Shown piece after piece: positions 27,957 through 34,063 of a DNA stretch of 64,000 nt (position 1 is the first letter of the stretch; every line of letters starts with the position of its first letter). The translations under genes and the position numbers were made by a program. Below the pieces are notes generated by a model, which ran no database searches, was not told where the DNA came from, and saw nothing but the letters and a program-made list of their open reading frames with translations. The stretch lies in contig SSMU01000009.1 of NCBI GenBank assembly GCA_004799545.1, forward strand, positions 1 to 64,000. Reading direction: 5' to 3'. Origin of the DNA: Phenylobacterium sp. (GTDB taxonomy: Bacteria > Pseudomonadota > Alphaproteobacteria > Caulobacterales > Caulobacteraceae).

Positions 27957-28799
27957 ATGGACGGGCTCGAGGCCTTCCTGGCGGCGGAGGACCTGCCGCC
28001 GGCCTTCCGGCGCACCGTCGAGCGGGTCTGCGAGCCCCTGGCCGACCGGGCGCAGGCGGCCCACGCCCGGCTCGGTCGCACCGCCGTCATCGCCCTGTGC
28101 GGCGCCCAGGGCTCGGGCAAGTCGACGATCGCGGCGGCCACACGGGCGATCCTCATCCAGCGCGGGGTCGATGCGCTGGTCCTGTCGCTCGACGACCTCT
28201 ACCTGCCGCACGCGGCCCGCGAGCGCCTGGCCCGCGAGGTCCATCCGCTGCTGATCACCCGCGGCCCGCCCGGCACCCACGACGTCGAGCTCGGCCTGCA
28301 GGTGCTGGCCGCCGTGGCCCGCGACCGGACCATCGCCCTGCCCCGCTTCGACAAGGCCACCGACAATCCGGCCCCGATCACCGAGCGGCCCGCCTTCGTC
28401 GGCCCGGCCCAGGTGGTGCTGTTCGAAGGTTGGTGCGTCGGCGCCCGCGCCCAGCCGCGCGAGGCCCTGCGCGCGCCCATCAACGCCCTGGAGCGCGACG
28501 AGGACCCGGACGGCCGCTGGCGGCGGTTCGTCAACACCGCGCTGGCCGCCGCCTATCCCTCCCTCTTCGAACGCCACGACGAGCTGGTGCTGCTGGCCGC
28601 CCCCAGCTTCGAGGTGGTGGCCGGCTGGCGGGCCGAGCAGGAGGCGAAGCTGCGCGCCCGCACCGGCGGCGGCATGTCGCCCGAGGCCATCGCCCGCTTC
28701 GTCGCCCACTACGAGCGCCTGACCCGCTGGATCCTCGAGGAGATGCCGGCCCGCGCCGACTGGACCGTGCCGCTCGGCCCGGACCGCGCGCCAGCCTAG
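27957..28799 (+). CDS. D-glycerate 3-kinase-like P-loop kinase
   Basis: ALCGAQGSGKSTIAAAT P-loop; LSLDDLYLP; RGPPGTHDVELGLQVL; FEGWCVGARAQ. Confidence 0.88.
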   Translation: MDGLEAFLAAEDLPPAFRRTVERVCEPLADRAQAAHARLGRTAVIALCGAQGSGKSTIAAATRAILIQRGVDALVLSLDDLYLPHAARERLAREVHPLLITRGPPGTHDVELGLQVLAAVARDRTIALPRFDKATDNPAPITERPAFVGPAQVVLFEGWCVGARAQPREALRAPINALERDEDPDGRWRRFVNTALAAAYPSLFERHDELVLLAAPSFEVVAGWRAEQEAKLRARTGGGMSPEAIARFVAHYERLTRWILEEMPARADWTVPLGPDRAPA

Positions 28800-28998: not shown

Positions 28999-30555
28999 AT
29001 GGAAGCCGGACACAGCAAGATCCAGGGCAGCGAACGCCAAGCCCCCGCCGCCGCCTACCTCCACGCCGCCGCCGCCGATGAACCGGTCGAGGTCAGCATC
29101 TACCTGAAGGACCAGGAGCCCGATCCCCTGGCCCCGGGCTATCGCCCGCAGACCGAGGCCGAGCTGGGCCAGGCGCGCCAGGCGCTCTACGGCCCGCAGC
29201 TCGCCCAGCTGTCCGAATTCGCCACCCAGCACGGCATGACGGTGCTCGACAGCGACCCGATGCGCCGCCGGCTGAAGGTGACCGGCCCCGCCAGCGCCCT
29301 GCAGACGGCCTTCGGCACCCAGCTCGGCTACTACCGCGCCGACGGCCAGGCGCCGTTCCGCGCCCGCGTCGGCGTGCTCTCCGCGCCCAGCGACATCGCC
29401 GCCAACATCGAGGCGGTGCTGGGCTTCGACACCCGCCCGCTCGCCACGCCGAAGCTGCGGCTGGCCGAAAACCCGCACGCGGCGACCCAGCTGACCCCGA
29501 ACGTGGTGGCCAAGCTCTACCAGTTCCCGGTCGCCAAGGCCGCCAACCAGTGCATCGGCCTGATCGAGCTCGGCGGCGGTTTCCGCGCGAGCGACAACAA
29601 CCGCGCCTTCAAGGCCATGGGCCTGCCGACCCCGAAGGTCACGGCGGTCTCGGTCTCCGGCGGCAAGAACCAGCCCGGCGTCAACACCAACGCCGACGGC
29701 GAGGTGGCCCTGGACATCCAGGTGGCCGGCGGCGCCGCGCCCGGCGCGGCCATCGCGGTCTATTTCGCCCCCAACACCACCCAGGGCTTCGTCGACGCCA
29801 TCACCCACGCGGTGCACGACCAGCAGTTCAAGCCCTCCGTGCTGTCGATCAGCTGGGGCTCTTCCGAGAACGGCTGGACCCAGCAGACCATCAACGCCAT
29901 GAGCTCGGCCTTCCGCGACGCCGCGCGCCTCGGCGTCACCGTCTGCGCCGCGGCCGGCGATAACCTCGCCCCCGACGGCCAGACCGACGGCAAGGCGCAC
30001 GCCGACTACCCGGCCTCCGACCCCTACGTCGTCGGCTGCGGCGGCACCTACATCACCTTCGAGGCCAATGAGATCACCAGCGAGGTGGTCTGGAACCGCG
30101 GCGATTCCGGCACCGGCGGCGGCTATAGCGCCCTGTTCCCGAAGCCGCCCTACCAGCAGGCGACGCCGGGCGTGGCCCAGGCCCACCGCGGCGTCCCCGA
30201 TGTCGGCGGCGACGCCGATCCCAACAGCGGCTACGACATCGTGGTCGGGGGGGTCGGCGGGGCGATCGGCGGCACCAGCGCCGTGGCGCCCCTGTGGGCC
30301 GCGCTCTTCGCCCTGATCAACCAGGACCTCGGCAAGCCGGTCGGCCTGCCGCACGCCGTGCTCTACGCCTCGCCCAAGGCCTTCCGCGACATCGTCAAGG
30401 GCGACAACAAGGCGGGCGGCGTCGGCTTCAGCGCCGCCCCGGGCTGGGATCCCTGCACCGGGCTCGGGGCGCCGATCGGCGGCGCCGTGCTGACCTCCTT
30501 CCGCGCGGCCGCCACCACCACCACCACGGCGCCGGCGAAGGTCAACGCCGACTGA
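28999..30555 (+). CDS. S53 family peptidase (sedolisin/kumamolisin-like, with pro-domain)
   Basis: Pro-domain MTVLDSDPMRRRLKVTGPASALQTAFGTQLGYY; SISWGSSE; GGTSAVAPLWAAL catalytic Ser; C-terminal Ca-site region. Confidence 0.93.
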   Translation: MEAGHSKIQGSERQAPAAAYLHAAAADEPVEVSIYLKDQEPDPLAPGYRPQTEAELGQARQALYGPQLAQLSEFATQHGMTVLDSDPMRRRLKVTGPASALQTAFGTQLGYYRADGQAPFRARVGVLSAPSDIAANIEAVLGFDTRPLATPKLRLAENPHAATQLTPNVVAKLYQFPVAKAANQCIGLIELGGGFRASDNNRAFKAMGLPTPKVTAVSVSGGKNQPGVNTNADGEVALDIQVAGGAAPGAAIAVYFAPNTTQGFVDAITHAVHDQQFKPSVLSISWGSSENGWTQQTINAMSSAFRDAARLGVTVCAAAGDNLAPDGQTDGKAHADYPASDPYVVGCGGTYITFEANEITSEVVWNRGDSGTGGGYSALFPKPPYQQATPGVAQAHRGVPDVGGDADPNSGYDIVVGGVGGAIGGTSAVAPLWAALFALINQDLGKPVGLPHAVLYASPKAFRDIVKGDNKAGGVGFSAAPGWDPCTGLGAPIGGAVLTSFRAAATTTTTAPAKVNAD

Positions 30556-30635: not shown

Positions 30636-31517
30636 ATGACCCCAGCCCGGCCCCGCGTCGTCTTCGCCTATGATTTCGACGGCACGCTTGCGCCAGGCTT
30701 CATGCAGAACCACGCCTTCATCCCCGACGAGCTGGGGCTGAACCGCGGCGAGTTCTGGAAGGAGGTCAACCTCCTGGCCCGGGCGCAGCGCGGCGACGAG
30801 ATCCTCGCCTACATGCACCTGATGCTGGCCAAGGCCCGCGAGAAGGGCTTGGAGCTCAGCCTGGAGAGCTGGCGGCGCCGCGGCGCCACCCTGCAGCTGT
30901 TCCCCGGCGTCGAGGACTGGTTCGAGCGGCAGAACGCCCGCGCCGCCGCCCTCGACCTCGACCTGCGCCACTTCATCATCTCGTCCGGCAACCGCGAGCT
31001 GATCGAGGGCTCGCCGATCGCCCGCCACTTCGAGCGGATCTACGCCTCGGCCTTCATGTTCAACCCCGAAGAAGACGCCATCGGCATCGCGCTGGCCGTC
31101 AACTACACCTCGAAGACCCAGTACCTGTTCCGGATCAACAAGTGGACGCTGGAGGAGTGGGACTCCTCCACCCTCAACCGCGCCCAGGAGAAGGACGAGC
31201 GGGCGGTGCCCTTCGACCGCATCGCCTATTTCGGCGACGGCTTCACCGACGTGCCGACCATGCGCCTGGTCACCGACCAGGGCGGCTACGCCGTGGCGGT
31301 CTACGACGCCGACGAGAAGACCAGCCAGGCCGCCGCGGTCAGCCTGCGCGAGGAAGGCCGCGCCCGCCTGGCCGGCCCCGGCGACTACCGCGAGGGCGCC
31401 ACCCTCGACCTGCTGGCCGAGGCGATGCTGAAGGAGATCGGCGCGCGGGCCCATACCCCCGCCCTGGTCCGCTGGCCCGACATCGACCCCCAGCCCGAAC
31501 TGCCGCTGGACGACTAG
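30636..31517 (+). CDS. HAD family hydrolase
   Basis: VVFAYDFDGTLAPGFMQNH; HFIISSGNRELIEGSPIA; IAYFGDGFTDVPTMRLV. Confidence 0.85.
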   Translation: MTPARPRVVFAYDFDGTLAPGFMQNHAFIPDELGLNRGEFWKEVNLLARAQRGDEILAYMHLMLAKAREKGLELSLESWRRRGATLQLFPGVEDWFERQNARAAALDLDLRHFIISSGNRELIEGSPIARHFERIYASAFMFNPEEDAIGIALAVNYTSKTQYLFRINKWTLEEWDSSTLNRAQEKDERAVPFDRIAYFGDGFTDVPTMRLVTDQGGYAVAVYDADEKTSQAAAVSLREEGRARLAGPGDYREGATLDLLAEAMLKEIGARAHTPALVRWPDIDPQPELPLDD

Positions 31518-31539
31518 AGCCTGGCGCGCCGGATGGAGG

Positions 31540-32427
31540 TCAGTCGCTCGTGGTAGCCGATTCTGTACGCGACCCGCGCGAAGCGGAGGTCCACTTCAGG
31601 CTACCGATCGTCAAATCCCAAAATATATCGCGACCATCCGCCAGGATCGCGTAAGCGATGGTGAACGGAAACTCCGAGCCCCGCAGGTATCTCGATATCG
31701 ACCAGGCTGCGTCGAAAACCTGCCGGACGATCCTCGAAGAAGGAGGTGGGTCCTCAGTAAAAAGGCAAGTGTTCCCCGTCGTCACGAGCATTTCCACGAT
31801 CTGGGATTGCGTCATAACCCTGCCTTGACCGTGAAAGAGGTCTACAAGGCTATCAAGCCTAGCGTGTACGCGAACGTCGTGCGGTACGTCGCTAAGCTCT
31901 CTTCTCAATATGGATCGACCACCGCTCGCCTTCTGTTCAAACGACGAGGCGGAAGCGGACCAAATCCATTGTGGCGCGACAAACCCTCTCTGGAGATCCG
32001 AGGTGTCGAACCCACAACCCAATCCTTCTGCAGCCCATGCGCCGGAAACATCGAGCGTCGCATTTATGCTGAGCCGATTTGAGAAGCGATTCGTGGGTTC
32101 CAGAAGAATGACCGCCCGACCCTCCCGAAGAAACTCGTCGGCCGCCACCACGGCTTCCGCAACCGGATAGGTAAGCCCTCCGCGACGATAGGAAGTCGAT
32201 TCAACCCCTCCATCCGACCGAACCAGAACGGCGTCCTGCCCTATGGCGTGAGCGAACGCCCGTACGGCTTGGACCAGGGTTGGGTAGTCAGCGACCGCAG
32301 GAATAAACGCCGCATTCAGGGTCTTCAAACCTGCCAGCCGAAGGAGGCATAGCGACCACCACTTCGGATAGTCCCGTCGGCTCGCCTGCTCCATCAAGGC
32401 ATCGCCGTCCAAGAAGCTCAAAATCAT
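31540..32427 (-). CDS. uncharacterised protein (~295 aa), tentatively nucleotide-binding/ATP-grasp-like
   Basis: Start overlaps HIT gene stop (ATGA); contains VLVRSDGGVESTSYRRGG, VILLEPTNRFSNRLSINATLD, EGLGCGFDTSDLQRG; fold assignment is a guess. Confidence 0.6.
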   Translation of the reverse strand: MILSFLDGDALMEQASRRDYPKWWSLCLLRLAGLKTLNAAFIPAVADYPTLVQAVRAFAHAIGQDAVLVRSDGGVESTSYRRGGLTYPVAEAVVAADEFLREGRAVILLEPTNRFSNRLSINATLDVSGAWAAEGLGCGFDTSDLQRGFVAPQWIWSASASSFEQKASGGRSILRRELSDVPHDVRVHARLDSLVDLFHGQGRVMTQSQIVEMLVTTGNTCLFTEDPPPSSRIVRQVFDAAWSISRYLRGSEFPFTIAYAILADGRDIFWDLTIGSLKWTSASRGSRTESATTSD

Positions 32428-33077
32428 CGCGATGGCATCTCTGATTCTTGCTCGTAATCCATTGCATATCGCAACAGGAGCGCCGTGCGCCGCATGTTCT
32501 CGCCGAACGGATAAGATCGCCAATCGAACATCTTCGGCTGGCCCAAAGCGCCGGCGGTTGCTCGCCTAATAAACTGCCTCTGGAATCGTGCGGCGTTATC
32601 CCAGACCAACCATTCCCCCGGACTCAACGAAAGCGACAGATACGATCGCCCTGCATAGGTGCGGAGTTCCTCGAACCCAGTGAGGCGCTTTCCCTGCCCC
32701 CCTCTGCTTTCGTATGTTTTGAGTACTTCTAGGGAAGCATCTTCCACAGGAATGAAATGCATGTGCGCGTGCTCGCAGCACGCCGCAGTTGGATCTGTTG
32801 GTTCGCCAGAGCCATGCTCCGCAACGACGATAGGTCCACAAGCCGCGACAACGGCCGCGCGCACGCGCTCCACGAATTCCGAAAGTCGAAGTATTGCGTC
32901 TTGATCCAGATGAGCCATGCTATTGATGTGGGCACGCGAAACAACAAGGCTGTAGCCGACCACGAAACAGCCGAGCGTCGGAAGGGCTATGTGCTCTTCG
33001 CTAGAGGCGAAGCTAAGACCATCGTTTGCGCCAACTCGATTTACCTCATCGCAAAAGCTGCACTCCATCGATTCCAT
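32424..33077 (-). CDS. HIT family protein
   Basis: HIT triad CCEHAHMHFIPV preceded by GCFVVGYSLVVSRAHINSMAHLD; CSFC near N-terminus. Confidence 0.82.
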   Translation of the reverse strand: MESMECSFCDEVNRVGANDGLSFASSEEHIALPTLGCFVVGYSLVVSRAHINSMAHLDQDAILRLSEFVERVRAAVVAACGPIVVAEHGSGEPTDPTAACCEHAHMHFIPVEDASLEVLKTYESRGGQGKRLTGFEELRTYAGRSYLSLSLSPGEWLVWDNAARFQRQFIRRATAGALGQPKMFDWRSYPFGENMRRTALLLRYAMDYEQESEMPSR

Positions 33078-33133
33078 CCACTATTTTTGGGTCGGATAGC
33101 TTTGGTCGCCTCAGGATACAGCGAGAAGGGTCT

Positions 33134-33652
33134 ATGACAACAAATTCGCGCGAGGCGCCACAGAGCAACTCAGCCAAGACAGCAAGTCCGAAGAGATCGG
33201 ATGAATTTGAATTGGAAGTCTTCAAGCAATTGTCTGAAGATTTCCGACAGCTGAATCAAATTTTCTGGCAGGCTCCAGTCATCATTATAACAATCACTGG
33301 AGGACTCGGAGTTGCTATAGCTAGTTTGGATGTAACCCGGAGTCTTCGGGTATTTTTACTAATTTTTGCCGGTATATGCAATATATCTTGGATAATTATC
33401 CTTGTTCGACTAAGAATGGTAGTAATGTCAAGATTACTTGATCAGATACATCAATTTTCTCACGATTATTTTCCAGAAGAGAAAAAATCTCCTGCCTCTA
33501 GGCATGTCGTAATGTATATGTTTTGCTTCTTGTTATCGATCACGGGAGTCGCGTGCTTCTACGGGGCCGCAAACAGCGGCGAATTCTTTTCCAACAAAGG
33601 CAAAGAAAAAGGCGCGGCAGAGTATCACGTGACCGTAGTCGTCAAGAAATAA
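33134..33652 (+). CDS. small multi-TM membrane protein, unknown
   Basis: RBS gagaaggg; TM segments APVIIITITGGLGVAIASL, VFLLIFAGICNISWIIILV, HVVMYMFCFLLSITGVACFYGAA; strongly lower GC. Confidence 0.75.
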   Translation: MTTNSREAPQSNSAKTASPKRSDEFELEVFKQLSEDFRQLNQIFWQAPVIIITITGGLGVAIASLDVTRSLRVFLLIFAGICNISWIIILVRLRMVVMSRLLDQIHQFSHDYFPEEKKSPASRHVVMYMFCFLLSITGVACFYGAANSGEFFSNKGKEKGAAEYHVTVVVKK

Positions 33653-33664
33653 CTCGGGAATTCC

Positions 33665-33741
33665 TGGCGCGCCCGGCAGGACTCGAACCTGCAACCACCA
33701 GCTTAGAAGGCAGGTGCTCTATCCGGTTGAGCTACGGGCGC
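33665..33741 (-). tRNA. tRNA-Arg(TCT)
   Basis: GCGCCCGTAGCTCAACCGGATAGAGCACCTGCCTTCTAAGCTGGTGGTTGCAGGTTCGAGTCCTGCCGGGCGCGCCA; anticodon TCT; encoded CCA. Confidence 0.95.
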
Positions 33742-33754
33742 TCGCTCCAGGAAT

Positions 33755-34063
33755 TCAATGCGTCCAGGGGACCTTGCGGTTGAAGGCGAAGTTGTCGGCG
33801 TAGGCCTTGATGATCCGTTTGGCAGGCTTCGGATCGAGCAGCTGGAAGGCGATGCCGTGCTGGTCGGCGTAGCGCACCGCCTCCTCCTTGCTGTCGAACC
33901 ACAGCTGCACCTGGGTGGAGGCGGTGTCGGCGGTCACCGTCCAGCCCATCAGCGGGTCGGAGCGCAGCGCCGATCTCGGCTCGAACTCCAGCACCCATTC
34001 CTGGGTCTTGGCCTTGCCGGACTGCATGGCGGTCTTGGAGGGGCGGAAGATGCGCGCGAGCAT
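33755..34063 (-). CDS. ETC complex I subunit (NDUFS4-like)
   Basis: MLARIFRPSKTAMQSGKAKTQEWVLEFEPRSALRSDPLMGWTVTADTASTQVQLWFDSKEEAVRYAD...KRIIKAYADNFAFNRKVPWTH. Confidence 0.93.
   Translation of the reverse strand: MLARIFRPSKTAMQSGKAKTQEWVLEFEPRSALRSDPLMGWTVTADTASTQVQLWFDSKEEAVRYADQHGIAFQLLDPKPAKRIIKAYADNFAFNRKVPWTH

Follow-up and report, generated by a model that had tools for sequence, protein, structure and literature searches.

The DNA analysed here (the window) is a stretch of 64,000 nucleotides (64 kb) from the 4.03-Mb genome of a Phenylobacterium sp. Between a HAD-family gene and a tRNA-Arg(TCT) gene the window holds an islet of approximately 2.1 kb with a gene content of three, encoding a HIT protein (ORF2), a predicted ATP-grasp enzyme (ORF1) and a small membrane protein (ORF3). 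The HIT gene and the ATP-grasp gene form a coupled two-gene operon, which is oriented away from ORF3. The features of the locus and its flanks are as follows.

27957-28799, plus strand: PRK/uridine-kinase-family gene, conserved, flanking the variable interval at its far end
28999-30555, plus strand: pro-kumamolisin/subtilase-type peptidase gene, within the variable interval and missing here in the relative G011
30636-31517, plus strand: HAD-family gene, left flank (stop codon 31515-31517), in this position common to G011 only
31520-31530, plus strand: CCTGGCGCGCC, HAD-side copy, equal to the final 9 nt of the tRNA with 2 bp added, in tRNA orientation
31540-32427, minus strand: ORF1, predicted ATP-grasp-fold enzyme of 295 aa (AF2 and Foldseek), its ATG overlapping the HIT stop codon (ATGA)
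32424-33077, minus strand: ORF2, CwfJ-type HIT protein of 217 aa, start possibly at 33068, HAHMH triad intact
33078-33133, no strand: divergent intergenic region of 56 bp between the HIT gene and ORF3, with a ribosome-binding-like site, GAGAAGG, before ORF3
33134-33652, plus strand: ORF3, 172 aa, three predicted membrane segments
33663-33673, plus strand: CCTGGCGCGCC, tRNA-side copy, overlapping the encoded CCA and the 3' strand of the acceptor stem of tRNA-Arg(TCT)
33665-33741, minus strand: tRNA-Arg(TCT), intact and conserved across the genus
33755-34063, minus strand: NDUS4-like NADH dehydrogenase subunit gene, the conserved near flank

The foreign origin of the block between the CCTGGCGCGCC copies is not in doubt, because its base composition departs from that of the surroundings. 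Its GC content is 0.534, against a mean of 0.705 (sd 0.018, minimum 0.659) for all remaining windows of its size (2143 bp) in the 64 kb, and GC at third codon positions is 0.43 in ORF3, 0.59 in the HIT gene and 0.63 in the ATP-grasp gene, compared to 0.93-0.96 in the flanking genes. A preliminary description of this DNA had noted a stretch of lower GC and changed character, with three unusual ORFs, no housekeeping gene and no integrase. The GC profile and the third-position values bear this out, and the three genes are indeed all that the foreign block contains: no ORF of the islet encodes an integrase and a motif scan of the 64-kb window revealed none. An RNA-family search returned the tRNAs as sole matches. 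Overall GC is about 0.57 in the HIT and ATP-grasp genes and 0.42 in ORF3. The islet may therefore be a composite, in which the HIT/ATP-grasp pair and ORF3 are separate arrivals without a common function. The tRNA-Arg gene itself is flanked by a 10-bp inverted repeat, with GAATTCCTGG preceding it and CCAGGAATTC following it (33653-33756 of the window); the 3' part of this repeat was not seen in the 3' flanks of relatives.

ORF1 has no Pfam or PADLOC family and no meaningful NCBIfam match. Its AF2 model, built with nine actinobacterial relatives (pLDDT 84), found DcsG, D-Ala-D-Ala ligases (Ddl) and RimK as best Foldseek matches (best E 1.3e-6, TM about 0.4), and by this modelled fold ORF1 is predicted to belong to the ATP-grasp superfamily. 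Assignment as PglW-like (E 0.17) or RES-like (E 1) is at chance level and was rejected. In three samples of genomes, drawn from the family (300), the class (387) and the phylum (399), the gene was not found outside this genome; two weak matches (E about 4e-4; G112, G261) were discarded, their loci falling over unrelated ORFs. Among GTDB representatives and plasmids, relatives of ORF1 are found in Streptomyces and Kribbella only. Wherever the record is long enough, a HIT gene precedes the ATP-grasp gene there. A cysteine desulfurase gene also adjoins.

The HxHxH triad of ORF2 (H103, H105, H107) is invariant and lies in a predicted HIT fold, by which ORF2 is placed in the HIT superfamily. The model of the protein is of low confidence (pLDDT 56). 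Its best structural matches are CWF19/CwfJ spliceosome proteins, chains which we take to be of the CWF19 type, and HIT enzymes; the Pfam CwfJ_C_1 match is weak. Relatives within the family share only 23-24% identity. The HIT protein matches phrog_23000 (1.3e-7), and no phage relatives were found in phage records or viral contigs. A Lactococcus gene following a HIT gene, considered as an ATP-grasp gene, turned out to encode an EamA transporter. Relatives of ORF3 are neighbours of SAM methyltransferases or are fused to them, in several cases within dnd phosphorothioation loci. Among the genus genomes searched, one distant relative of ORF3 came up (37%, in G051).

The islet is located in an interval of changing content. 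Within the genus, tRNA-Pro, NDUS4 and tRNA-Arg(TCT) are an ancient array. At 59 genus loci the next conserved gene (counted as RsuA, kinase, SDR or Cys/Met PLP enzyme) lies between about 10 bp and 6.7 kb from the end of the tRNA, with a median of 825 bp; at 18 of them the distance is at most 100 bp. Judged by these comparisons of sequence, the interval between tRNA-Arg and the kinase gene is genuinely variable, with occupied and empty states. Integrases were not found in the genus intervals by motif scan, and among the PF00589 matches listed for 60 genomes none lies within them. Different cargo between the same flanks, as predicted beforehand, was seen once: the nearest syntenic relative, G011, has the same NDUS4, tRNA-Arg and HAD genes, and a mechanosensitive channel (MscS) gene replaces the islet. 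The other prediction, an empty site with one CCTGGCGCGCC, was not borne out, as no clean, empty tRNA-to-HAD junction was present among the relatives searched. Synteny of the three genes in most relatives had been named as evidence against an islet. Since the other genus genomes searched do not contain the islet genes, this objection falls. The same absence, relieved by distant ORF3 relatives only, dismisses a conserved native locus. Among the genomes searched, the three genes occur together at this locus only. We consider it very probable that the islet is foreign and that it occupies a variable, tRNA-adjacent interval.

The evidence for integration at the tRNA is another matter. CCTGGCGCGCC does occur at 31520 and at 33663, with the first copy two bases past the HAD stop codon as originally described, and of the 11 bases in the repeat, 9 are part of the tRNA. 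Yet rarity of the 11-mer had been proposed as a test, and the sequence is common, with 69 copies in the 4.03-Mb genome and four in the 64-kb window against an expected 0.6. Of 40-bp windows, 0.19-0.28% match the tRNA end exactly over at least 11 bases. When one gap is allowed the HAD-side match extends to 16/19 columns, and matches as good as this are found in about 1% of 40-bp windows; the preliminary description had cautioned that the similarity could be due to chance. In the 5 kb downstream of the tRNA, an 11-base match to the tRNA end is nothing unusual, in relatives as well as in shuffles. The sole unusual feature of the pair is its position near the islet edges, within 10-12 bp of both outer genes.

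A sister species (G037:C11, L140) carries a 46-bp tRNA-Arg(TCT) fragment, 40/46 identical and reaching from the anticodon loop to CCA, about 2757 bp downstream of its intact tRNA-Arg(TCT). The stretch between them holds lower-GC ORFs without Pfam matches and no integrase motif, and by its sequence is a genuine, tRNA-bounded small islet. Small integrase-less islets thus do exist at tRNA-Arg(TCT). With 69 genomic copies, and set beside a genuine fragment of 46 bp, the CCTGGCGCGCC pair cannot be called att, and as an indication of att sites or of tRNA integration it is weak. What stands of the preliminary description is a foreign islet adjacent to a tRNA at a site with occupied and empty states; the reading of CCTGGCGCGCC as its att flanks is weak.

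Two other routes for the block, an exchange within its flanks or the loss of a larger element, are as likely as site-specific integration at CCTGGCGCGCC. We give almost an even chance to passive exchange, in which the content between NDUS4-tRNA-Arg and the kinase gene would be swapped through homologous recombination or through illegitimate end joining, with the repeat arising by coincidence. The contents of the genus intervals are diverse, many of them of native GC and all free of integrases by motif scan, and G011 shares the HAD gene, yet has MscS in place of the islet; against such exchange speaks the islet boundary, which lies about 10 bp from both CCTGGCGCGCC copies at a nominal chance of 0.2-1%. 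Integrase-mediated insertion, with the CCTGGCGCGCC pair as a short or decayed att of the tRNA 3' end and the integrase lost or acting in trans, seems quite unlikely. It would explain why a copy lies on the right side and in the right orientation close to both outer genes, with a gapped match of some length, and the G037 fragment shows that such islets form here. The islet also resembles the tRNA-integrated genomic islands (PMC4383910) in being foreign DNA of about 2.1 kb located 3' of an intact tRNA, with a correctly oriented repeat like the tRNA end. It differs from them in that it carries no integrase, which the Islander definition includes (PMC4383910), and in that its tRNA fragment is a common sequence of 9 tRNA nt plus 2 bp, whereas a cut at the T-stem/acceptor junction (site J of PMC4383910) would leave a fragment of at least 11 nt.

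Relatives of the islet proteins recur in several kinds of neighbourhood. The fullest one around ORF1 relatives is found in Streptomyces, where genes for a dCTP-deaminase-like protein, HIT, ATP-grasp and a DndA/SspA-like cysteine desulfurase stand together with MazG-like and phosphatase-methyltransferase genes. With this cluster, present in Streptomyces and Kribbella (L096, L097, L102-L110), the islet shares the adjacent HIT and ATP-grasp genes at 30-38% identity; the dCTP-deaminase-like, desulfurase, MazG and methyltransferase genes are all missing from it, and a membrane protein is encoded instead. In the conserved Streptomyces cluster (L096, L097, L103-L107, L109, L110) a LysR-type gene is also present, and the cluster lies twice on large plasmids and once beside a phage portal gene. 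In Rhizobium, HIT adjoins a cysteine desulfurase among metabolic-looking genes.

Three members of the family Caulobacteraceae (G258, G308, G288) possess HIT-TM-MazG operons, which resemble the islet in having broadly the same HIT type beside a small membrane protein. They differ in the third gene, which bears MazG and has no significant similarity to the window ATP-grasp, so that the MazG-fusion protein was rejected as its homologue; a PPDK/ATP-grasp-like part is possible in it at a Pfam E of 0.043 only. In G288 (L166, 1581-6536), one operon encodes HIT, the small membrane protein and a protein of 814 aa whose C-terminus is MazG-like, and is followed by a gene with a Shedu SduA C-terminal domain (SduA_C). 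A tRNA-Phe island in G227 (L115, 4368-13358), also of this family, carries integrase, ThyX, dCTP-deaminase-like, HIT, DUF2270-like membrane and caspase-like genes, the HIT/TM pair being divergent.

Two known defence systems bear comparison. A HIT gene (ThsC) has been reported with Thoeris (PMC8565338), where, as may be the case here, a HIT nucleotide hydrolase/transferase is part of a defence locus. The islet differs in that it has neither ThsA and ThsB (TIR) genes nor SIR2 or macro genes, and the match to ThsC is not significant (E 0.042). Dnd/Ssp phosphorothioation loci are approached from two sides, by DndB/DndC/DndD genes adjoining ORF3 relatives and by the desulfurase of the Streptomyces cluster; they differ from the islet, which holds no dnd or ssp gene, dndCDE and sspBCD included. 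PADLOC models do not match the islet proteins (best E 0.006 and 0.04), and no paper joining HIT, ATP-grasp and defence was found in the literature.

We propose that a compact, horizontally acquired islet fills the variable interval located 3' of tRNA-Arg(TCT). Its translationally coupled HIT and ATP-grasp operon would share the 56-bp divergent region with ORF3 as a control region. The ATP-grasp enzyme might spend ATP on an adduct, namely a small molecule or nucleotide that is ligated or phosphorylated, from which the HIT protein would remove or transfer a nucleotidyl group, and ORF3 may serve as responding effector or membrane anchor. The most likely role of such a set would be defence against phage or in another genetic conflict, because relatives of HIT and ORF3 recur beside membrane-protein, Shedu, caspase-like and dnd genes. 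Missing PADLOC matches, the possibly biosynthetic nature of the Streptomyces clusters, the difference in composition between the HIT/ATP-grasp pair and ORF3 and the low pLDDT of the HIT model speak against this role, and a defence-like function is about evenly balanced. The overall explanation, a horizontally acquired cargo of defence-like nucleotide chemistry, likewise has roughly an even chance.

It is possible, albeit somewhat unlikely, that the HIT-ATP-grasp pair is instead a piece of a small biosynthetic or nucleotide-modification pathway. The conserved Streptomyces clusters with their cysteine desulfurase, dCTP-deaminase-like, MazG-like and phosphatase-methyltransferase genes, and the metabolic-looking surroundings in Rhizobium, are in line with such a pathway. 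Every other gene of the cluster is missing from the window, however, and the membrane-protein partners of the relatives with their Shedu, caspase and dnd neighbours point to conflict systems. Returning to defence, we regard as doubtful the more specific proposal that HIT (CwfJ type), ATP-grasp and a small membrane protein constitute an undescribed nucleotide-based defence system, carried as integrase-less cassettes of 2-3 kb into the tRNA-Arg(TCT) site of the genus.

The islet and its relatives bring together three testable ideas. The first concerns the HIT/ATP-grasp enzyme pair and its product, the second the recurrent association of such HIT proteins with small membrane proteins and enzymes of the nucleotide pool in the vicinity of known defence genes, and the third a tRNA-adjacent interval which, in this genome and in G037, acquires cargo of 2-3 kb without a visible integrase. 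Should the enzyme pair produce a signal that works via the membrane protein, this would be a new nucleotide-based immune circuit.
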